Below are positions 7,059-56,240 of a stretch of DNA of 64,000 nt, piece by piece (positions within the stretch are counted from its first letter, which is position 1; every line of letters starts with the position of its first letter). This stretch comes from an uncultured Bacteroidia bacterium (lineage in GTDB: Bacteria > Bacteroidota > Bacteroidia > Bacteroidales > UBA932). The notes beneath the pieces are model-generated. The model was not told where the DNA came from, made no database searches, and saw only the letters and a program-made list of their open reading frames with translations. The stretch covers positions 54,054-118,053 of the forward strand of contig CADAND010000008.1 in assembly GCA_902789245.1 (NCBI GenBank). Reading direction: 5' to 3'. The position numbers and the translations under genes were made by a program.

Positions 7059-7997
7059 ATTCTGAGCGGAGCAGGGGACTCCTTTTTTGTATGAAGCGGG
7101 GAAGAGCGCTTCCAGAACCGTCGGGTCCATCTTCAATATGCGTTTGATTTGACGTGGGGCGGCTTTGTAATCGAAGTGCAATTTCCTGGCCAGGGTATTC
7201 TTTGCTTCCGGGGGCAGGCTGGTCAGGCTACGCACGCCGTATTCCTGGGCCGCTAGTGTACGCGCTACGCCGAACATCTCTTCGTCTGTCAGGTATGCCG
7301 TATCCGCCAGCCGCTTGGCGATGCCGCTCCCGGCTTCTTGATTCCTGCTCAAGAGCCGGAAGTACTGATGGGCGTTGCGATAGTACGCTTCTCCTTCCTG
7401 GATGGAGCAAAAAGAGAGCGGATGGATCATCTGCCCCGTAACCTCGTACTCCTTAGGTAATTCAATCAGCCTGCCGTGGTAGAGTTTCCGTTGCTCCGGC
7501 TGGGATAGGGAGGATAATCGGATTCTTGGCACCGCGGCCAGCAGGGGATTGAAATAGTATACGCCTGCACTCCACGGGTAGGAATATGGAGTATGCTCAG
7601 GCTGAACGACATAACCGTTCCGGTTGACGTACACGATTTCGTTGCGCAGGGCTTGCAGGTCGGGAATCTCGAAGGCGTCCGGAACGAGCGCCGACAAATC
7701 CGGATATCGTCCCTGCCCGGCCAGGAAACGCTTCAGCCGTTTCCTGTAAAGTGCGAAAAACGAAAGCGCATCCTCCCGGCTTCCTGCCAGGATGATGTGA
7801 AAGTGATTGTTCATCAGCGTGAAAGTGACAATCCGCAAGCTTGGAAACGCCGCCAGGCAGACTGCCATCAGGTTCATGCCGACGATGAAATCCTCCGGGG
7901 ATGTAAAGATGATTTCTGTCAGATCTCCCGGCGTGTAGATGTGCCAATAGGGGCCCTTGCTGCGAAAGTCGAATTCGCAGACTTCATCGTTTCTCAT
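7047..7997 (-). CDS. REP-associated tyrosine (Y1, HUH) transposase-like protein, copy 1
   Basis: 316 residues. The N-terminal half matches the IS200/Y1 fold: the HUH motif is seen in TLMNNHFHIILAG, and a candidate catalytic tyrosine in EIVYVNRNGYV. The C-terminal third is a helical domain resembling the DnaA-like C-terminus common in Bacteroidota Y1 proteins (LTDEEMFGVARTLAAQEYG...). This architecture is that of RAYT proteins, which nick and rejoin single-stranded DNA at palindromic REP sequences. Its stop codon lies inside a palindromic repeat (6983-7058). A SANT-like gene sits 11 nt upstream on the same strand, probably co-transcribed. A second, diverged homologue is at 26350-27240. Both HUH histidines and the Tyr are present, so it may be active. 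Confidence 0.8.
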   Translation of the reverse strand: MRNDEVCEFDFRSKGPYWHIYTPGDLTEIIFTSPEDFIVGMNLMAVCLAAFPSLRIVTFTLMNNHFHIILAGSREDALSFFALYRKRLKRFLAGQGRYPDLSALVPDAFEIPDLQALRNEIVYVNRNGYVVQPEHTPYSYPWSAGVYYFNPLLAAVPRIRLSSLSQPEQRKLYHGRLIELPKEYEVTGQMIHPLSFCSIQEGEAYYRNAHQYFRLLSRNQEAGSGIAKRLADTAYLTDEEMFGVARTLAAQEYGVRSLTSLPPEAKNTLARKLHFDYKAAPRQIKRILKMDPTVLEALFPASYKKGVPCSAQNPNR

Positions 7998-26127: not shown

Positions 26128-26150
26128 CTACCCTGGCTTGCCTTTCCCTC

Positions 26151-26350
26151 GCGGGCGGACGAAAATTATTTTTCGTGCGGTAGCCCGAAAAACCAATTTC
26201 CGCTCCGCCCTCCGCAACGCCAACGCACGGCAAGCTTTTGTTTTATGTCGAAAAAAGGTAAAACCGGCCAGAAAACAGTAGGTTTTTCTGGCCGGTCCCC
26301 TGTTTTTTGGGGGGACCTGGCAGGTTTTGCCGGGTTTTTCTGCCCGGTTT
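26151..26350 (+). repeat. ~200-bp structured repeat at the 3' end of Y1 transposase 2 (copy A)
   Basis: It matches the reverse complement of 31337-31529 almost throughout, including GAAAAACCAATTTC, AACGCCAACGCACGGCA, the 13-bp hairpin at 26263-26296 (ACCGGCCAGAAAA with TTTTCTGGCCGGT) and CTGCCCGGTTT at its end. Internally it is a row of hairpins: CCGGCCAG..CTGGCCGG, CCCC..GGGG, ACCTGGCAGGT and CCGGG..CCCGG. The last base is the first base of the transposase stop codon. Confidence 0.9.
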
Positions 26351-27240
26351 TACTCAAAAATCCTCTTCAAGTCACTTAGAGGTAAGTGGGAGATTCGGGC
26401 CAGCTGCTTCAAAGATGCCCTCGTTTCCTTCTTCACCAATCTGCAAAGCCTGATCCGATCCTGCACGTCCAGTCTGGCTATTTCATTAGCACCGAACTGT
26501 CTTTGGGCTATCTCCCGGGCAATCCGGGCCACATCTTGATCCGGAAGAGAAATGGTCTCCCCATACATTTGCTGATTAATCTCCGTTTCGACATTCTGGT
26601 TCAGAAAATACAATAGATTCCGAGGATGGCCGAATAGCTTTTCAACACGTTTGAAGTCCGTATAGTCCCCCGGCCAAATCAATCCATCTTGCAATAGATG
26701 CCATTCTGCAGGTAGTCCTATCTTGGATTCGAAGGCATTGCGAAACTCATATGAAGACAGGGACCCGATGCTTCGCGCCCCTTCCGGAAGCACACCGTAA
26801 TCCGAGAACACCAGCCGGGCTGAACTCCAGCGATATCCTTGCGGCGTAAAACCCATTCTTGCAACCGTCGGATTCCGGAAAACATAAGCAATCTTCTGTT
26901 TCAAATCCTCTTCGTCATACACTTGCCAGGCGTCATAGTCCCACGGTTCATCGACAGGATCCGCTTCCCGATGGCTACGCTGCCACATCATGGTAAGCTT
27001 GTGGTACAGTGCCATCCACTTAAGACAGGCCTCTCGACTGCCGTACAAAACCACATGTAAATGATTATCCATTAGACAGAAAGCGATAACTATCACAGGT
27101 GAAATCTCTTTTAGTTTCGCTGTGCAGAGCGCGACACGGTTCATCCCGGCAATAAACTCCCGGGGATCTGCGAAAAGGACACAATGGTCAAAGCCTTTGG
27201 TCGCGCAATGGTAATAATGAGGGGAGGTTGAAGTTTTCAT
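26350..27240 (-). CDS. REP-associated tyrosine (Y1, HUH) transposase-like protein, copy 2
   Basis: 296 residues from ATG 27240 (MKTSTSPHYYHCATKGFDHC). An in-frame ATG at 27294 adds 18 residues that lack family character. The HUH motif is in FCLMDNHLHVVLYG and the candidate catalytic Tyr in QKIAYVFRNPTVARMGF. The C-terminal helical region (LPDQDVARIAREIAQRQFG... DLKRIFE) aligns by pattern with copy 1 at 7047-7997. Its stop codon touches the structured repeat at 26151-26350, whose second copy is at 31337-31529. That is the layout of a RAYT gene and its cognate REP elements. No inverted terminal repeats of a normal insertion sequence are seen. Confidence 0.8.
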   Translation of the reverse strand: MKTSTSPHYYHCATKGFDHCVLFADPREFIAGMNRVALCTAKLKEISPVIVIAFCLMDNHLHVVLYGSREACLKWMALYHKLTMMWQRSHREADPVDEPWDYDAWQVYDEEDLKQKIAYVFRNPTVARMGFTPQGYRWSSARLVFSDYGVLPEGARSIGSLSSYEFRNAFESKIGLPAEWHLLQDGLIWPGDYTDFKRVEKLFGHPRNLLYFLNQNVETEINQQMYGETISLPDQDVARIAREIAQRQFGANEIARLDVQDRIRLCRLVKKETRASLKQLARISHLPLSDLKRIFE

Positions 27241-27319
27241 TTTTTTCAGCAAGTTACTTCCGGTCTCCGGGAACAGCAAGGATTTTCGTCCCATTCCTCA
27301 CAAATTGTGAAATTTTACA

Positions 27320-27341
27320 TAGTAAGATAAATTTTACTATT
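27320..27341. promoter_or_regulatory. AT-rich inverted repeat upstream of Y1 transposase 2
   Basis: ATAGTAA and TTTACTAT flank a short AT-rich centre about 80 nt upstream of the transposase start. This is a possible operator; no clear TAnnTTTG box is seen nearby. Confidence 0.3.
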
Positions 27342-27359
27342 GTCGGGGACGAATAATTA

Positions 27360-27389
27360 GGCCCCCGGCTGCTTCCGCAGCCGGGGGCC
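27360..27389 (-). terminator. Strong hairpin terminator after the carboxylesterase gene
   Basis: A 13-bp perfect stem (27360-27372 with 27377-27389, GGCCCCCGGCTGC and its complement) closes a 4-nt loop, 30 nt after the minus-strand stop at 27419. The tail is AT-rich (TAATTATT) rather than a pure T run. Confidence 0.75.
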
Positions 27390-27418
27390 TGTTGCTGTAT
27401 GTGTGTTAAACTAACCGA

Positions 27419-28903
27419 TTACGGAACGATGGGCTCGCCGACTTCGGAGTTCTCCTTGTCCTGGGCGTCCAGCTTGAAGAGCATGAACTTGCTGTTGTCC
27501 TTGGTGTAAGGCTCCCAGCCGAGGCCCGGATCGCTGGTCTTGGCGAAGTTGGTCCAGGCGGTCAGCATCTTCTCGGAGAGATCCCAGTCACCCTGGGTCC
27601 AGGGACGCCAGCAGTGCTCGAGGGACTTGAAGACGAACCACAGGTCGGAGGAGTGGAACGCACCCTTCAGGCGGGCGGTCACCTCCGGATGGGAACCGTC
27701 GTCAGGCAGCGGGCGGGCAAACTCGTAGGCCCAGGCCTTGGCACCCTTCTCCTCACGGTTGAGGCAGAAAGCGGCGATGCCGCCGGACATATTGCCCATA
27801 TCGTTGAGCGTGTAGCCGATCATGTAAGGGACATCGGCGAGCGAGCCATCCTTGGCGGCGTCGTCAAAGCTCTCCTTGCTGACATAACCGTCCACCATCG
27901 GCATACCGGTGAGGGAGCCGAACTTGCCGCTGGCGCCATTGTAGATGGTGCTGAGGGCATAGAGGGTCTCGGTGGAGGCGGCACGCATCTTCTTGAGGTC
28001 GGTCAGGCCGGCCCAGTCGAGGATCTCCTTGCAGGCCTGCTCGGCTTCCTTGATGTTGGTCGGGCGGAACATGCGCATCATGCCGGCAGGCATGGCGGGC
28101 ATACCGGCGGGACGGCCGGCGGGAGCGGCTGCAGGAGCCGGCTGCGGGACGGTGATGCCGCCGCCGGACATGATGACGGCCTTGTGGAAGAGACCGCGGG
28201 CGAGCGGGGACTCGCAGATGGTCTTGACACTGCCGGCGCCGGCGCTCTGGCCGAAGATCATGACGTTGTCAGGATCGCCGCCGAACTGGGCGATATTCTT
28301 CTTGATCCACTTCAGGGCCTCGATCTGGTCGAGGATACCGTAGTTGCCGGACACACCGTGCGGGCTCTCGGCGGAGAGCTCAGGGTGGGTCAGGAAGCCG
28401 AACACACCGAGGCGGTAGTTGATGGACACGAGGACGACGTCCTTCTCGCCCCAGGCCTTGGCATCGAACTCAGGCTCGGAGCCCCAGCCTTCGCGGTAAC
28501 CGCCACCATGGATCCAGAGGGCCACGGGGAGCTTCTTGTCGGGCTGGCCGGAGGCCTTGGTCCAGACGTTCAGGTAGAGGCAGTCCTCGCTGTAGGGAGC
28601 CTCGTCGCCATAACCCCACTCGGTGAAGTAACCACCGGGGTACTGGATGGCCTGGTAGCTCGGATGACCGAACTTGTCGCAGAGTTTCACGCCCTCCCAG
28701 GGAACGACCGGCTGGGGCTCCTTCCAACGGTTCTCACCGATAGGCGGAGCGGCATAGGGAATGCCCCGGTACACGAGCACACCGGGAATCTCCGTGGTAA
28801 CACCTTTCACCTGGCCTCCCTCGATGGTGAGGACCGGCGTGTCAACAGCCTTGCTGCACCCGAACAGGGCGAGCACGGACAACAAAAGAAGTGCTTTTTT
28901 CAT
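27419..28903 (-). CDS. Carboxylesterase type B family lipoprotein
   Basis: 494 residues; MKKALLLLSVLALFGC gives a lipobox Cys at 16. It has an alpha/beta-hydrolase fold with EDCLYLNVWTK, the oxyanion-hole LWIHGGGYREGWG, and the nucleophile elbow FGQSAGAGS with Ser about 220. The C-terminal HSSDLWFVF carries a probable catalytic His. A Pro/Ala/Met-rich insert (residues about 255-285) interrupts the cap region. Family members hydrolyse carboxylic esters, and in polysaccharide-degrading Bacteroidota often remove acyl groups from glycans. The gene stands alone with its own terminator, so the substrate is open. Confidence 0.88.
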   Translation of the reverse strand: MKKALLLLSVLALFGCSKAVDTPVLTIEGGQVKGVTTEIPGVLVYRGIPYAAPPIGENRWKEPQPVVPWEGVKLCDKFGHPSYQAIQYPGGYFTEWGYGDEAPYSEDCLYLNVWTKASGQPDKKLPVALWIHGGGYREGWGSEPEFDAKAWGEKDVVLVSINYRLGVFGFLTHPELSAESPHGVSGNYGILDQIEALKWIKKNIAQFGGDPDNVMIFGQSAGAGSVKTICESPLARGLFHKAVIMSGGGITVPQPAPAAAPAGRPAGMPAMPAGMMRMFRPTNIKEAEQACKEILDWAGLTDLKKMRAASTETLYALSTIYNGASGKFGSLTGMPMVDGYVSKESFDDAAKDGSLADVPYMIGYTLNDMGNMSGGIAAFCLNREEKGAKAWAYEFARPLPDDGSHPEVTARLKGAFHSSDLWFVFKSLEHCWRPWTQGDWDLSEKMLTAWTNFAKTSDPGLGWEPYTKDNSKFMLFKLDAQDKENSEVGEPIVP

Positions 28904-29024
28904 ATTGATTTGAAAAATTGGTTAGTGTTTCCGCACAAAGTTTCACAAAGTTACTTTTTGCTGCGCAGGATTCCTAACAATGATGGATCAAAAATATAAA
29001 AAAATGCGCATCTTGCGTTGTCGC

Positions 29025-29055
29025 TTTGGCAATTGCCAAGAATTGCGTAACTTTG
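29025..29055 (+). promoter_or_regulatory. glsA promoter (TTTG-N19-TAACTTTG) with a palindromic operator
   Basis: TTTG at 29025-29028, a 19-nt spacer and TAACTTTG at 29048-29055 form a full match. A perfect 14-bp palindrome, TTGGCAATTGCCAA (29026-29039), overlaps the -33 box. Repression by a dimeric regulator is a plausible inference. ATG 29063 is only 7 nt after the -7 box. Confidence 0.65.
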
Positions 29056-29062
29056 TCTAACT

Positions 29063-29881
29063 ATGAGCACCACTGACAGTGTACAAGACCGCCTGATCGA
29101 CCTGGACAAGGTCGTGGCTACCAAGTTCAAGGGGAAGAAGCTTCCCCGTTTCGTCGTCAATTTCTTCAAGCGATTCATTCACCAGGACTGGTTGAACGAG
29201 GTGCTCGCGCGCGGCTATGACGGTGCGGAATTCTGCGACGACACCCTTCGGTTCATGGACGTGAAGATCGAGGTCGAAGGCCTGGAGAACGTCCCGAAGG
29301 ACGGCACGCTCTACACCTTCGCCTCCAACCATCCGCTCGGCGCAGCCGACGGCCTGGCCCTGTGCGGGCTGATCTCGCGCGAGTTCGGCAAGGTCTGCAT
29401 GCCGGTCAACGATTTCCTGATGTTCCTCAAGCCCCTGGCGCCGCTCTGCGTGCCCATCAACAAGACGGGCACCCAGGTGCGCAACCTGCCGCAGCTGATG
29501 GACGACGCCTTCCGCTCGGACGACCAGATCATGATCTTCCCGGCGGGTGTGTGCTCCCGCCGCATCCAGGGCAAGATCCAGGACTTCCCCTGGACCAAGA
29601 CCTTCATCACCAAGAGCGTGGATACCGGCCGCCCGGTGGTGCCGGTGCACTTCATCGGCCGCAATCCGGGGCGTTTCTACCGTGCCGACTGGTTCTTCCG
29701 CAAGGTCTTGAAGACGAAGTTCAACATCCCGATGCTCTTCCTGCCCGATGCGCTGTACCACACGCAGCACAAGACTTTCAAGATCATTCTCGGCAAACCC
29801 ATCCCGGCTTCCACCTTCGACAACAGCCGCAAGCCCGTCGAGTGGGCGGCATGGGTGCGCGAAAAAGTATATCAACTCTAG
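29063..29881 (+). CDS. glsA: PlsC-type O-acyltransferase for glycine-lipid synthesis (GlsA-like)
   Basis: 272 residues. It has a PlsC/LPLAT fold with ASNHPLGAADG (acyltransferase block I with a longer His-Asp spacing, typical of this branch), DFLMFLKPLAPLCVPINKTG and the block III-like IMIFPAGVCSRR. GlsA O-acylates N-acyl-3-hydroxy-acyl-glycine to give glycine lipids, membrane lipids of Bacteroidota. It pairs with glsB 6 nt downstream, the known order of the glycine-lipid genes, which is the main reason for choosing GlsA over a general lysophosphatidate acyltransferase. The gene has a strong promoter with an overlapping palindrome. Confidence 0.82.
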   Translation: MSTTDSVQDRLIDLDKVVATKFKGKKLPRFVVNFFKRFIHQDWLNEVLARGYDGAEFCDDTLRFMDVKIEVEGLENVPKDGTLYTFASNHPLGAADGLALCGLISREFGKVCMPVNDFLMFLKPLAPLCVPINKTGTQVRNLPQLMDDAFRSDDQIMIFPAGVCSRRIQGKIQDFPWTKTFITKSVDTGRPVVPVHFIGRNPGRFYRADWFFRKVLKTKFNIPMLFLPDALYHTQHKTFKIILGKPIPASTFDNSRKPVEWAAWVREKVYQL

Positions 29882-29887
29882 CGAGTC

Positions 29888-30967
29888 ATGGAAAAAATCA
29901 TCGATCCGGTAAGCGTGGACCTGCTGAAAGCGGAACTCACCCCCGACAGAAAACTGTGCGACACCAATAAATCCGACAACGAGATTTACGTGGTCAACTG
30001 CCACAATGCGCCCAATGTCCTGCAGGAGATCGGCCGCCTGCGCGAGATTGCCTTCCGCGACAGCGGCGGCGGCACGGGCGCGTCGGTCGATCTGGATGAT
30101 TTCGATTTCAAGGACGACCGGCTCTACCAGCAGATCGTCATCTGGGATCCCGATGCCTCGGCCATCCTGGGCGGCTACCGCTACATCCTGGGCACGGACG
30201 TGAATCTCGACGCGGAGGGGCAGCCCATCCTGGCTTCCGCGCACCTGTTCCATTTCTCGGATGAGTTCATCCAGGACTACCTCCCGCACACCATCGAGCT
30301 CGGCCGCTCCTTCGTGGCGCCCGAGTACCAGAGTTCCAAGGCCGGCGCGAAGGCCATCTTCGCCCTGGACAACCTCTGGGACGGCCTCGCCGCGGTTATG
30401 CTCCAGCATGCCGACATGATGTACTATTTCGGGAAGATGACCGTCTATCCGGACTACGACAAGGCGGCGCTCGACCTGATCCAGCGCTTCCTGTGGAAGC
30501 ATTTCCCGGATGCCGACGAGCTGATCCGGCCGAAGCAGTCCTACGATATCGTGACGAATCCCCGGCTGCTGGACCTGATCCTCAAGGACGAGGACTACAA
30601 GATGGACTACCGCAACCTCAAAGATGCGATCCGCCGTCTCGGAACGGGGATTCCGCCGCTGGTCAATTCCTATATGAATGCGTCTCCGAAGATGAAGATG
30701 TTCGGCAGCGCCATCAACGACGAATTCTTCGATGCCATCGAAACGGGCATTCTGATCGGCTTCGAGGAGATGTACGCCGACAAGCGCGACCGCCACAAGG
30801 AGCCGTACTTCAAACATCTGGCGGAGACACTGCTGCATCGCGGCGCGATCCGCGCGGAGCTGTCGGAGCTGAAGGACAAGCTGCTCAGCAAGAACGCACG
30901 GCAGCGCGCACGCCGCTTCAACGCTTTCCTGAAGAAGAAAAAGAAAATAGAAAAGGTGGAGCCGTAA
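29888..30967 (+). CDS. glsB: GNAT-like N-acyltransferase for glycine-lipid synthesis (GlsB-like)
   Basis: 359 residues. The first ~200 residues match the OlsB/GlsB-type acyl-ACP N-acyltransferase fold: VLQEIGRLREIAFRDSGGGTG, ILGGYRYILG and TIELGRSFVAPEYQ. The remainder is a helical extension ending in a Lys-rich tail (KKKKKIEKVEP). GlsB transfers a 3-hydroxyacyl chain to glycine, the first step of glycine-lipid synthesis. Its last codons overlap, on the opposite strand, the 3' end of RNase P RNA: the A-rich lysine codons are the T-rich terminator tract of that RNA, and GAAAAGGTGGAGC is one strand of its helix P1. Confidence 0.85.
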   Translation: MEKIIDPVSVDLLKAELTPDRKLCDTNKSDNEIYVVNCHNAPNVLQEIGRLREIAFRDSGGGTGASVDLDDFDFKDDRLYQQIVIWDPDASAILGGYRYILGTDVNLDAEGQPILASAHLFHFSDEFIQDYLPHTIELGRSFVAPEYQSSKAGAKAIFALDNLWDGLAAVMLQHADMMYYFGKMTVYPDYDKAALDLIQRFLWKHFPDADELIRPKQSYDIVTNPRLLDLILKDEDYKMDYRNLKDAIRRLGTGIPPLVNSYMNASPKMKMFGSAINDEFFDAIETGILIGFEEMYADKRDRHKEPYFKHLAETLLHRGAIRAELSELKDKLLSKNARQRARRFNAFLKKKKKIEKVEP

Positions 30968-31303
30968 GCCGGTTTCTGTTCACGTATTTTCTGCCATTTA
31001 TCTTCGCAACCTACCCCCTGGCATCGGACGGGCCGTCCTCGTCTGCCAGTATATTTGGTCTTGCAGGTCCCGGTGTCGTACCCGCACGACATCGCTGCCG
31101 TGCGTCGTGGGCTCTTGCCCCGCGTTTTCACCCTTACCCTTCCGAGATCCCCGATCTAGTCGGGGATGACGGAGGAGGCGGTTGTTTTCTGTTACGACGG
31201 GCGTAAGGTTACCCCTACCTGTGCTTTCCACAGCGGGATGCCCTGTCCTGTCCGGACTTTCCTCCCTTGCGGGCGGCAGATCGCCCCACCTTTATTTCAA
31301 TTG
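30947..31303 (-). ncRNA. rnpB: RNase P RNA (M1 RNA)
   Basis: On the minus strand the universal RNase P segments occur in order. GAGGAAAGTCC (5' P4 strand) is at 31254-31264. GGGTAAGGGTGAAAA then GGGGCAAGAGCCCACG is at 31106-31140. ACAGAAACCGGCTTA (3' P4 strand) is at 30965-30979. Helix P1 can be drawn as 11 bp between 31283-31293 and 30952-30962 with one G-U pair. P12 is formed by a palindrome at 31146-31170. A TATCTTTG promoter box lies at 31310-31317. The 3' end enters the glsB coding region, where lysine codons supply a T-rich tract. RNase P RNA is the catalytic subunit that matures tRNA 5' ends. Confidence 0.93.
31146..31170 (-). repeat. REP-style palindrome forming helix P12 of RNase P RNA
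   Basis: ATCCCCGA-TCTAG-TCGGGGAT followed by GAC on the plus strand. It sits exactly between the P10/P11 strand and the GGGTAAGGG segment, where P12 belongs. Its style, including the GATGAC end, resembles the palindromes at 18576 and 34330 (which end GAATGAC). Confidence 0.6.
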
Positions 31304-31309
31304 ACGGCG

Positions 31310-31317
31310 CAAAGATA
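31310..31317 (-). promoter_or_regulatory. rnpB -7 promoter box (TATCTTTG)
   Basis: Plus-strand CAAAGATA. The -33 region lies at the edge of the repeat at 31337-31529. Confidence 0.65.
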
Positions 31318-31336
31318 ATCATTTTCTTCGAACCTG

Positions 31337-31529
31337 AAACCGGGCAGAAAAACCCGGGAAAACCTGCCAGGTACCCCCAAAAAACAGGGGACCGGCCAGA
31401 AAACACCATGGTTTTCTGGCCGGTCCTGCTGTTTCAGCTGGCGGGTGCCGTGCGTTGGCGTTGTGAAGGGCGGAGCAGAAATTGGTTTTTCGAGCTGTTG
31501 CACGAAAAATTATTTCCGGCCGTCCGCGT
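31337..31529 (-). repeat. ~195-bp structured repeat upstream of rnpB (copy B)
   Basis: Reverse-complement match to copy A at 26151-26350. The main hairpin is 14 bp here (ACCGGCCAGAAAAC at 31391-31404 with its complement at 31411-31424), with a loop different from copy A. There is no transposase gene next to this copy. It lies between the rnpB promoter and the 3' end of the GH3 gene. Confidence 0.9.
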
Positions 31530-31554
31530 GGGAGCACCCGCCGGCCGTAATCGC

Positions 31555-34164
31555 TTACAGGACCTGGAAATCCAGGGCCTTCAGGTCCTCGTCGCGGGAA
31601 GAGGAGCCGTAGAGGATGCGGTACTTGCCCGGGCGGACGGACAGGCCGTCCACGGAGGCGTCGTAGTACTCGAAGGCCTCGTCGTCGAGGGTGATGGAGA
31701 CCTTGGCCGTGGCACCCGGGGCGAGCTGCACCTTGTCGAAGCCCTTGAGGGCCTTGATCGGGGCGTCAGGGTTGTCGAGGGCCTGCACATAGACCTGGGC
31801 GATCTCGGCGCCGGCCACGGAGCCGGTGTTCGTCACCGGGAAGGTGACCGTGACCTTGCCGCCCTTCTTCATGGAGCTCTTGTTGAGCTTGCCTTCGCCA
31901 TAGCCGAAGGTGGTGTAGCTCAGACCGTAACCGAAGGCGTACTGCGGCGTGCCGCGGAAGTAGCGGTAGGTGCGGTTCTCCATGTTGTAATCCAGGAAGT
32001 CCGGAAGATCGGCGGTGGAGGCGTAGAAGGTGACAGGCAGCTTGGCGGACGGGTTGTAGTCGCCGAAGAGCACGTCGGCAAGGGCCTTGGCGCCGCCCTG
32101 GCCGGGATACCAGGCCTGCAGGAGGGCGTTGTACTGACCCTCGACGCTCGCGAAAGCGATGGCGGAGCCGGAGCAGTTCACGAACACCACCGGCTTGCCG
32201 GTCTCGTGCATGGCACGGACGAGGCGCTGCTGCACGGCGGGGAGCTCGATGTCGGCCTTGTCGCCGCCTTCGCCCTCCATCTGGGCGGAGATGCCGCCGA
32301 TGATGATGATGGCGTCGGCGTCGGCCGCCAGGGCCTTCTCCTCAGCGAAGTCAGCGTACTTGCGCTCGACGAAGTCGGCGCGCAGCATGGCGAAGGGACC
32401 CGCACCGCGGCGGTATTCGATCTCGATGTCGAGCGGCTTGCCGGCCTGGACGTCGAACGTCTTATAGGAGGCGCCGCCGCGACGGCCGAAGCCGAAGCCC
32501 ATGCCGCCCATGGCGGGCTTGGCGTTCTCCACCACGCGGCCGTTGACCTTGAGGGTGTAGCCGTTGTCGGAGGAGACGGTGTAGCTCATCGGACCGGAGA
32601 AGTCAGGCACGAAGCGGCCCTTGATGCGGACGGAGATCTTGTCCGTAGGGATGCCTTCGGCGAAGCCGTATGCGCCGAAGGTGCTGAAGTTCAGCTCTTT
32701 GTAGTAGCCGCTGGTCTTCGGCTGTCCCTTCATTTCGCTGTTGTCCCAGAACTCCACGAACACGCCCTGGCCTTCGTTGAACTCCGGCAAGTGGTAGATC
32801 GTGTTGTAGTCGTCGGCGAGGGTGCAGCCCTTGGAATAGAGGACGTTGGCCTCAGGCAGGGCGTTCTTGATGCCCTCGAGCAGGGAGTGCTTGTGGTTGT
32901 CGGTCGGGGTGCCGCCGTAGTTGCCGTTGAGCAGGGCGACATCGTCGGCGTTCGGGCCGACCACGAGGACGGTCTTCAGGCTCTTGGAGAGCGGGAGGAT
33001 GCCGTCGTTCGCAAGGAGAACCATGGACTCGCGCGCGGCCTGGGTGGCCAGGGCGTCGTGCTCCTCGCTGCTGATCACGTCTTCGCCGAGCTTGGACCAG
33101 GGCACCATGTCGGCCGGGTCGAACATACCCAGCTCGAAGCGGCCGCGAAGCGTGCGGCGCAGGTGCTCGTCGAGGTCAGCCTCGCTGATCATGCCCTTCT
33201 CCAGGGCCTCGGTGAGGGCCATCATGGTCTTGCCGCACTCGAGGTCGGTGCCATGCAGGACGGCGTCCACGGTGGCGTGGAGGGCATCCGGCTGGGTCTC
33301 GTGCTGGCCGCGGGTGAAGTAGTTGTTGATGGCGTCGCAGTCCGTCAGGACGATGGCCTCATAGCCCCACTTGTTGCGCAGGATGTCCGTCAGGAGACGG
33401 TCGTTGGAGCAGCAGGGGACGTCCTCGTAGCGGTTGTAGGCGCACATGACTTCGCGCACGTCACCGTCCACGACAAGTTTCTCGAACGCGGGGAGGTAGG
33501 TCTCGAAGAGGTCACGCTGCGAGACGTGGGCGTTGTAGGTGTGGCGCAGGGGCTCCGGACCGCTGTGCACGGCGTAGTGCTTCGCGCACGCGTGAGTCTT
33601 GTAGTAGCGGGGATCGTTGCCCTGCATGCCGAGCACGGTCTGCACGCCCAGGACGCCGGAGAGGTAGGGATCCTCGCCGCAGGTCTCCTGGCCACGGCCC
33701 CAGCGCGGGTCGCGGAAGATGTTGACGTTCGGGCACCAGAAGGTGAGCTCCGGGTTGCCGGGGTAGTAGGTCACGCCCATCGGCACGTTGAAGATGTCGT
33801 GGTCGGAACGGTTCCAGTTGGCGCGGGCCTCGTCGGACACCTGCGAGAAGACGTCGTACATCTGCTGCGGGTTGAAGGCGGCGGCCATGCCGATCGGCTG
33901 GGGATAGACGGTGTAGCCGTCCTCACGCACGCCGTGACAAGCCTCGCTCCACCAGTTGTAGGAGGGAATGCCGAGGCGGTCGACGGAGATGGATTTGTTC
34001 ATCATCAGACCCACTTTCTCTTCGGGGGTGAGCAGGGAGATCAGGTTCTCCACGCGGTCCTCGATTTTGAGTTTCGGGTTCTGGAACGGGTACTCGTAGG
34101 TCTGCTTGGGGCCGCAGGCGGCCAGCAGGACCAGGGAGGAAAGAATAATGAGTGTTTTACGCAT
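31555..34164 (-). CDS. Glycoside hydrolase family 3 lipoprotein (beta-xylosidase/beta-glucosidase type) with PA14 insert
   Basis: 869 residues; LLAACG gives a lipobox Cys at 17. The GH3 (alpha/beta)8 domain (about 35-330) includes NWWSEACHGV, TFWCPNVNIFRDPRWGRGQE, KHYAVHSGPE and IVLTDCDAI with the probable nucleophile Asp about 275. An alpha/beta sandwich begins near SMVLLANDGILPL and is interrupted by a PA14-like insert (about 440-590, SDNGYTLKVNGR). The closing FnIII-like domain has LSYTTFGY. It should release terminal beta-linked xylose or glucose. It is last in the operon with a GH43-CE1 fusion and a CE1 esterase, which favours xylan-type substrates. Confidence 0.92.
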   Translation of the reverse strand: MRKTLIILSSLVLLAACGPKQTYEYPFQNPKLKIEDRVENLISLLTPEEKVGLMMNKSISVDRLGIPSYNWWSEACHGVREDGYTVYPQPIGMAAAFNPQQMYDVFSQVSDEARANWNRSDHDIFNVPMGVTYYPGNPELTFWCPNVNIFRDPRWGRGQETCGEDPYLSGVLGVQTVLGMQGNDPRYYKTHACAKHYAVHSGPEPLRHTYNAHVSQRDLFETYLPAFEKLVVDGDVREVMCAYNRYEDVPCCSNDRLLTDILRNKWGYEAIVLTDCDAINNYFTRGQHETQPDALHATVDAVLHGTDLECGKTMMALTEALEKGMISEADLDEHLRRTLRGRFELGMFDPADMVPWSKLGEDVISSEEHDALATQAARESMVLLANDGILPLSKSLKTVLVVGPNADDVALLNGNYGGTPTDNHKHSLLEGIKNALPEANVLYSKGCTLADDYNTIYHLPEFNEGQGVFVEFWDNSEMKGQPKTSGYYKELNFSTFGAYGFAEGIPTDKISVRIKGRFVPDFSGPMSYTVSSDNGYTLKVNGRVVENAKPAMGGMGFGFGRRGGASYKTFDVQAGKPLDIEIEYRRGAGPFAMLRADFVERKYADFAEEKALAADADAIIIIGGISAQMEGEGGDKADIELPAVQQRLVRAMHETGKPVVFVNCSGSAIAFASVEGQYNALLQAWYPGQGGAKALADVLFGDYNPSAKLPVTFYASTADLPDFLDYNMENRTYRYFRGTPQYAFGYGLSYTTFGYGEGKLNKSSMKKGGKVTVTFPVTNTGSVAGAEIAQVYVQALDNPDAPIKALKGFDKVQLAPGATAKVSITLDDEAFEYYDASVDGLSVRPGKYRILYGSSSRDEDLKALDFQVL

Positions 34165-56112: not shown

Positions 56113-56121
56113 CAGCCGATA

Positions 56122-56232
56122 TCTCTTCAGGGCAGGGTGCAATTCCCTACTGGCGGTATAGTCCGCGACTCCCCGAGAGGGGACTGAGCCGGTGAAACTC
56201 CGACACCAACGGTACAGTCCGGATGGAAGACG
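56122..56232 (+). promoter_or_regulatory. FMN riboswitch (RFN element)
   Basis: The conserved FMN-aptamer strings appear in order: AGGGCAGGGTGCAATTCCC, ACTGGCGGTATAGTCCGCGA, a GAGCCGGTGAAACTCCGA segment and CGGTACAGTCCGGATGGAAGA. P1 closes with TCTTC (56124-56128) and GAAGA (56226-56230). It ends 9 nt before the ribD start, so it probably blocks translation initiation when FMN is bound; no terminator is seen inside. Confidence 0.95.
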
Positions 56233-56240
56233 GGATAAGT

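Follow-up and report, generated by a model that had tools for sequence, protein, structure and literature searches.

Palindromic repeats inserted in frame within genes are known in Rickettsia and Wolbachia, according to an excerpt of PMC3767692. Rickettsia palindromic elements (RPEs) are described in the accessible parts of PMC10969869 and PMC3767692 as repeats of 100-150 nt, present in many copies, which lie in frame in genes and occupy shared sites in orthologues. In a different type of system, the REPtron, a gene for a REP-associated tyrosine transposase (RAYT, or TnpAREP, where REP stands for repetitive extragenic palindrome) is found with REPs or bacterial interspersed mosaic elements (BIMEs). 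The RAYTs of subclass 2.6 (RAYT group 5), mostly from Bacteroidetes, show atypical flanking secondary structures with copies elsewhere, as an excerpt of PMC6006769 indicates, and the palindrome on which the TnpAREP of E. coli depends has to be imperfect and to contain a bulge, according to the accessible part of PMC8266576. Here, we analyze a 64,000-nt stretch (the window) of contig CADAND010000008.1, from an uncultured Bacteroidia bacterium, in which a gene for a RAYT-like Y1/HUH protein abuts a structured repeat. We consider it probable that this site is a RAYT REPtron with two mobile hairpins placed side by side: E2, which would be the cognate REP of the transposase, and E1, which would be an independent non-autonomous element entering both intergenic DNA and genes.

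A previous sequence-only reading of this stretch described one repeat of about 200 nt, close to a complex BIME or a non-autonomous element, with two inverted copies. The near-full-length match between these copies was confirmed, since copy A (26151-26350) aligns with the minus strand of approximately 31337-31529 (copy B) with 81% identity over query positions 1-200, and both copies fold better than shuffled DNA (z of -3.9 for copy A and -4.9 for copy B, with none of the 200 shuffles being as good). Their location was also well described: the Y1 gene, whose extent we place at 26350-27294 on the minus strand instead of 26350-27240, has its stop codon (26350-26352) within the arms 26258-26275/26336-26353 of copy A, and copy B is found between rnpB (30949-31292) and an open reading frame (ORF) at 31555-34164, the putative GH3 gene of the sequence-only reading. 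The unity of the repeat had to be abandoned. A search with the 200 nt of copy A against the genome of the window (G000; 2.28 Mb in 28 contigs, 95% complete), for which 40 of the 50 first-look candidates were scored, returned at least 34 matches, so that the repeat is by no means limited to two copies. Two of these matches comprise both halves (A and B), 4 the right half only, 27 the left half or part of it, and 1 lies on the opposite strand within B; the partial matches fall on query positions 1-99 or part of them, or on 111-197 or part of them. A single element of about 200 nt was rejected because the matches separate into two halves, which we name E1 (left) and E2 (right).

Both halves were found together only in copies A and B among the scored candidates, and the spacers between E1 and E2 in these two copies appear unrelated, so the two pairings need not have a single origin. 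The whole array could instead be one complex BIME, or miniature inverted-repeat transposable element (MITE), of the window RAYT, with solo E1 and E2 as its breakdown products. This would fit the same relative arrangement of the two composite copies, as well as the short hairpins, resembling degenerate E1 copies or arms, seen by eye beside the solo E2 copies L023 and L026. However, the 27 E1-only and 4 E2-only matches, the unrelated spacers, the unequal range of the two halves (17 genomes with E1 and 8 with E2, out of one set of 121 from the genus), and the high copy number of the E1 core in genomes where no close relative of the window RAYT was found make it unlikely.

The Y1 protein matches the NCBIfam model NF047646 (REP-associated tyrosine transposase) with an E-value of 1.7e-6 and 28 bits, under the model cut-off of 80; Pfam returned no family for it, and a PDB search nothing relevant. 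The motifs NHLH and YVFRNP are readable in its translation, and presumably play their usual RAYT roles. RAYT homologues give eight matches in G000, a single broken gene accounting for two of these, and are present in 102 of the 121 genomes; most of the 16 RAYT loci judged by eye are flanked by palindromes, which differ from gene to gene. E2 has a length of about 95 nt, abuts the Y1 gene, and occurs in at least six places of G000 including copy A (7 of 9 candidates scored), as well as weakly in 7 of the 120 other genomes (8 of 121 in all). Through E2, the gene is flanked by palindromes repeated elsewhere in its genome, as RAYT genes are, and E2 is most likely the cognate REP of this RAYT. The RAYT-REP link proposed in the sequence-only reading thus stands for the E2 half, with its RAYT-like protein and recurring flanking element, but not for the E1 half. 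As in REPtrons, the imperfect palindromes belonging to the gene flank it and have further genomic copies; contrary to them, E2 contains several hairpins over its length, and E1 is not bound to one RAYT. At the locus of copy A in G108, G080 and G322, no E1, E2 or RAYT was found.

E1, with about 100 nt in G000, accounts for 29 matches there, including A and B and some shortened copies. It was detected by blastn in 17 of the 121 genomes, and an exact match to its core pattern, AATTATTTTTYG-N4..14-CRAAAAACCAATT, is present in 52 of the 400 genomes searched from the genus, with up to 26 copies in each, compared with 0 of 400 for the reversed pattern used as control. At least 111 stretches with the E1 core were found in the named-species collection; among the matches listed, 110 are titled Bacteroidales or Bacteroidia and 1 Clostridia, and many come from rumen samples. 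No core was found in viral contigs. The E1 hairpin covaries: in an alignment limited to cores with a 10-nt loop (69 of the 153 distinct ones), 93.4% of the cells are paired, and the two-sided cells amount to 177, compared with 66.7 in shuffled alignments (none of 500 reaches 177) and 18-43 in slid controls. The core pattern itself requires an A/CC mismatch in the stem; in a pattern-free check of 56 E1 copies found by profile, 51 of them parsable, this mismatch is repaired in only 2, as judged from the tabulated copies. The lower and outer stems are diverse in sequence yet paired, the outer types including GGCTTGCC and ATTCGCCGGTC, the last one also found as solo hairpins. E1 is not a REP in the sense of a short extragenic palindrome of 20-40 nt, given its size in G000 and its frequent intragenic location elsewhere.

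The sequence-only reading had suggested comparing orthologous sites with and without the repeat, and both kinds were found in relatives. The 21 E1 copies of G000 used as queries (L019, L025 and copies without a profile match being excluded) were compared with G322, which is approximately 87-90% identical to G000 at rimO. Seven of them have a spanning E1-free match (L018, L003, L009, L006, L016, L022 and L020), another hairpin-like sequence occupying the site in L006, L022 and L020, and three sites are filled in both genomes (L004, L012 and L028). At L008 and L010, G322 has a different solo palindrome in place of E1; L027 has no match in G322, and the remaining eight gave no readable comparison (L005, L007 with an E1 tail, L011, L013, L014, L015, L017 and L021). 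Where the E1-free match is cleanest, namely at L018, L003 and L009, G322 lacks both the core and the outer stem. The existence of these E1-free orthologous sites therefore indicates that E1 is mobile, outer stem included. Insertion of E1 into the loop of pre-existing palindromes was also considered, and is contradicted at these same three sites, where the outer stem is absent along with the core.

E1 is also located within protein-coding genes. In the 80 stretches examined out of the at least 111, 51 of 92 cores lie inside an ORF that reaches at least 180 nt to either side, and a Pfam family was recognized in 33 of 46 such ORFs, one from each of 46 loci, and in all 10 further ORFs, from loci picked for their genic-looking frames. 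The host genes include rfbD, trpC, atpG, ribF, trmH, mutY, rnpA, citC/citG, CitX and YggS, together with those of a DNA-alkylation repair enzyme, an epimerase, a UDP-glucose dehydrogenase, MetH and an MFS transporter. The Pfam-supported ORFs contain 44 distinct strict cores, under 22 gene labels, of which 39 are in sense orientation, 36 of them in sense phase 0, where E1 encodes the peptide NYF[S/L]....KNQF. Of the 153 cores, each taken with 14 nt on either side, 150 have no stop codon in sense phase 0, but the same applies to 138 and 100 for the two other sense frames and to 111, 103 and 37 for the antisense frames; stop codons therefore do not force the bias towards phase 0.

Some of these genes have E1 in the same loop in several species. 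In RfbD, E1 occupies one shared loop in G000 (after LRLAA) and in G108 (after LRDLAAA), in different frames, and these two insertions are therefore independent; G108 has a second E1 further on, G058 a decayed one, and the loops of G150, G283, G177 and G119 contain SERSEES-like peptides from another palindrome. Compared with RfbD in the PDB, the protein has extra residues between query residues 17 and 71, a stretch longer than E1 alone. By eye, TrpC has E1 in one loop in G108, G204, G364 and G177, lacks it in G000, G080 and G065, and shows antisense E1-like peptides in G119 and G150 and short E1-tail-like peptides in G283, G097 and G058. AtpG has E1 peptides in G301, G177 and G119, and twice in G283; the two loops concerned carry peptides of other palindromes elsewhere, IPDQVGDD among them. 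As far as these comparisons of sequence reach, E1 is a family of protein-coding palindromic elements, structured, mobile and tolerated in frame.

Two other explanations were considered for E1 or for its in-gene copies. E1 might be a structured RNA or a transcription terminator with a regulatory role, as could be expected from a covarying hairpin with intergenic copies; this is very improbable, considering the E1-free orthologous sites of a relative as close as G322, the in-frame copies within unrelated enzymes in both orientations, and the absence of any Rfam match to copies A and B at gathering thresholds. The in-gene copies might also be assembly chimaeras or pseudogenes, a concern with genomes that are mostly metagenome-assembled genomes (MAGs). 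The chance of this is slighter still, because such copies appear in MAGs of several studies and in the same loops in several species, with open frames and with Pfam domains or conserved residues resuming on both sides in many cases.

Regarding the mover of E1, the sequence-only reading had pointed to the window transposase, a proposal that the distribution of E1 does not support. The best E1 copies in G080 and G119 are 93% and 88% identical, and the best RAYTs of these genomes are 31% and 28% identical to the window RAYT, which is therefore not required for E1; likewise, the core is present 24 times in G188 and 23 times in G293, with best RAYTs 30% and 28% identical. E1 would thus exist in genomes that never carried this transposase, the case named in the sequence-only reading as refuting its proposal, with the reserve that the assemblies are incomplete (76-83% for G080, G119 and G188, 92% for G293) and that the G188 copies are unlike E1 outside the core. 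RAYT homologues of some kind are present in all 17 E1 genomes of the 121, and in all 15 chosen core-carrying genomes. Proximity was evaluated for 42 of 61 fetched RAYT loci, mapped by hand to core-carrying genomes and representing best matches instead of all RAYTs: 6 E1 cores lie in the flanks of 5 loci, compared with 0.62 expected by uniform scatter (P 4.6e-5 for at least 6), and without the window locus, which prompted the question, 5 cores lie at 4 loci (P 4.5e-4 for at least 5, against the same 0.62). In addition, the mismatch of the E1 core stem resembles the bulge needed by the E. coli TnpAREP. From this bulge-like mismatch and from the position of E1 near RAYT genes above uniform scatter, we infer a RAYT-type movement, and the mobilization of E1 by some RAYT is plausible, yet unproven.

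According to this model, E1 would insert copies of itself, together with the outer stem, both between genes and within protein-coding genes, and an HUH enzyme of the RAYT type would move it in the form of a single-stranded DNA hairpin. Within genes, only those copies that keep the frame would survive, in tolerant loops and mostly in sense, in the phase of the polar NYF[S/L]....KNQF peptide, and the frame bias would thus derive from protein tolerance and not from an insertion preference. In its fullest form, which we put forward tentatively, E1 would be a RAYT-mobilized, REP-like selfish hairpin turned protein-coding, and this HUH system would seed the proteome of the genus with in-frame peptides, in loops common to several palindrome families.

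A non-RAYT enzyme might move E1 instead, or E1 might owe its spread and its changes of shape to two processes acting at hairpins, gene conversion and the switching of templates during replication. No E1-specific transposase was found, the lower and outer stems are diverse and still paired, and in rfbD, both in G000 and in G108, the left outer arm possibly belongs to the coding sequence of the host (residues RLAA and LAAA, with similar ones in relatives that have no E1), the right arm being its exact reverse complement. One E1 arm is also repeated in tandem next to a RAYT locus of G000 and its counterpart in G080, and template switching is discussed for the coding palindromes of nematomorphs in the accessible part of PMC6649704. 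However, a step resembling transposition is required to account for the presence and absence of E1 at orthologous sites and for its occurrence in unrelated genes, and the REP-like stem mismatch is retained in all but 2 of the 51 parsed copies, so that this explanation is a real possibility that we would not call probable.

Several points weigh against the interpretation of E1 as a mobile coding hairpin moved by RAYTs. Its mobility is read from sequence comparison, no transposition event having been observed, and the junctions at E1-free sites are ragged, with neither a clean target duplication nor a cleavage site found; with respect to the traits of MITEs, outer stems vary between E1 copies and a clean duplication is missing at these sites. 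Two of the five covariation measures are not above shuffles in the 69 cores: the pairs with two-sided change are reached in 66 of 500 shuffles, and the further pair types in 404 of 500. Five of the 44 in-gene cores are antisense, and many in-gene copies are orthologous, so these 44 exceed the number of independent events; moreover, the source genomes are mostly MAGs, and Pfam support is weak or away from the insertion in the OMP barrel, U32, MBOAT, YhcH and pectinesterase ORFs. The co-occurrence of E1 and RAYTs carries little weight, as 102 of 121 genomes have RAYTs. Finally, 37 of the 42 RAYT loci have no core nearby, and the proximity test is based on few events and on genome sizes that are rounded, takes no account of a preference for intergenic DNA that E1 and RAYTs could have in common, and counts the window locus.

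Of the described systems, RPEs (RPE-1 to RPE-3, and others) are the most similar to E1 in size, in copy number, in their location both between genes and in frame in unrelated conserved genes, and in their same or neighboring sites in orthologues, as far as the available portions of the RPE literature describe them. E1 shares with them both the palindromic repeat of approximately 100-150 nt and the in-frame insertion in unrelated genes; by eye, some in-gene forms of E1 seem nearer to 55-60 nt. The differences are the host, Bacteroidales and not Rickettsiales, the conserved A/CC mismatch, the position of E1 beside RAYT genes in some genomes, and the use of the same loops by several palindrome families. 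By analogy, E1 would work like an RPE without being classed as one, the likeness being drawn from published descriptions, and the host phylum being unrelated. The nematomorph mitochondrial palindromes are also hairpins within protein-coding genes, although the accessible part of PMC6649704 presents them as perfect inverted repeats, contrary to E1, a bacterial repeat family with a conserved core.

Among the articles listed by our literature searches, which covered open-licence PMC articles, we saw none on palindromic elements inserted in frame in genes of Bacteroidales. We know of no mobilizer identified for elements of this kind and, if RAYT-mobilized, E1 would be, to our knowledge, the first protein-coding palindrome with a candidate link to a transposase, and would offer a testable model for the spread of the Rickettsia elements. 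In a gut lineage unrelated to Rickettsia and Wolbachia, for which hundreds of species have been sequenced, coding palindromes are seen at sites that are filled in one genome and free of E1 in another, as independent insertions into one loop and with a strong frame bias, while candidate HUH enzymes lie beside some of the repeats. Taken together, these features make both the mover of coding palindromes and their tolerance by proteins directly testable. The features of the window are collected in Table 1.

Table 1. Position of the repeats, RAYT genes and rnpB palindrome along the window.
Feature	Position	Strand	Description
E1 copy A	26135..26235	+	Outer stem GGCTTGCC/GGCAAGC around the conserved E1 hairpin
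E1 core, copy A	26164..26198	+	AATTATTTTTCG-N10-CGAAAAACCAATT; helix with A/CC asymmetric mismatch
E2 copy A	26258..26353	+	Hairpins inside terminal arms GTAAAACCGGCCAG/CTGCCCGGTTTTAC; right arm holds the Y1 stop codon
Y1/HUH RAYT gene	26350..27294	-	NHLH and YVFRNP in translation; weak NCBIfam match
E2 copy B	31334..31438	-	Matches the right half of copy A
E1 copy B	31440..31542	-	Outer stem differs from copy A: GGCGGGTGC/GCACCCGCC
Palindrome in rnpB	31144..31172		GAGATCCCCGATCTAGTCGGGGATGACGG; absent in G322, G097, G150 and G065
Second RAYT, divergent	7104..7952	-	27% identity to the Y1 protein; other palindromes alongside

Other observations concern the E1 arms and their surroundings. In the rfbD genes of G000 and G108 (L027 and L112), the exact complementarity of the right outer arm to a left arm that is possibly host coding sequence may be a sign of template switching. 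At L110 (G000:C22:8000-15600), a broken RAYT is accompanied by E1 and by one of the E1 arms repeated in tandem, (GGTTTGCCATCCCC)n, with an inverted duplicate of the region upstream of the RAYT beyond the neighboring 818-codon ORF; L114, in G080, resembles this locus, with the same E1-arm array and a RAYT frame that is not interrupted. E1 was considered as the REP of this C22 RAYT, and other palindromic sequence stands between it and the gene.

Between copies A and B, the esterase-acyltransferase-GNAT-rnpB segment (window 26128-31554) is inverted in the close relatives G080 and G322, both of which are without the repeats there (L148, L149 and L150). An inversion of this 5-kb segment via the repeats was not demonstrated, as the inverted G080 and G322 and the G000-ordered G108 all are without repeats at this place. 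The palindrome within rnpB is common to G000 and G080, with a different one in G108. Other short repeated palindromes, GTCATTCGCCGG..CCGGCGAATCTC and GTCATTCTGAGCGAAGCGAAGAATCT, are found at L006, L007, L012, L026, L087 and L243 and in the RfbD and AtpG alignments, some of them translated in frame as SERSEES and IPDQVGDD. At gathering thresholds, the Rfam models matched in the window are rnpB and the flavin mononucleotide (FMN) riboswitch, the latter (RF00050) at 56119-56238.

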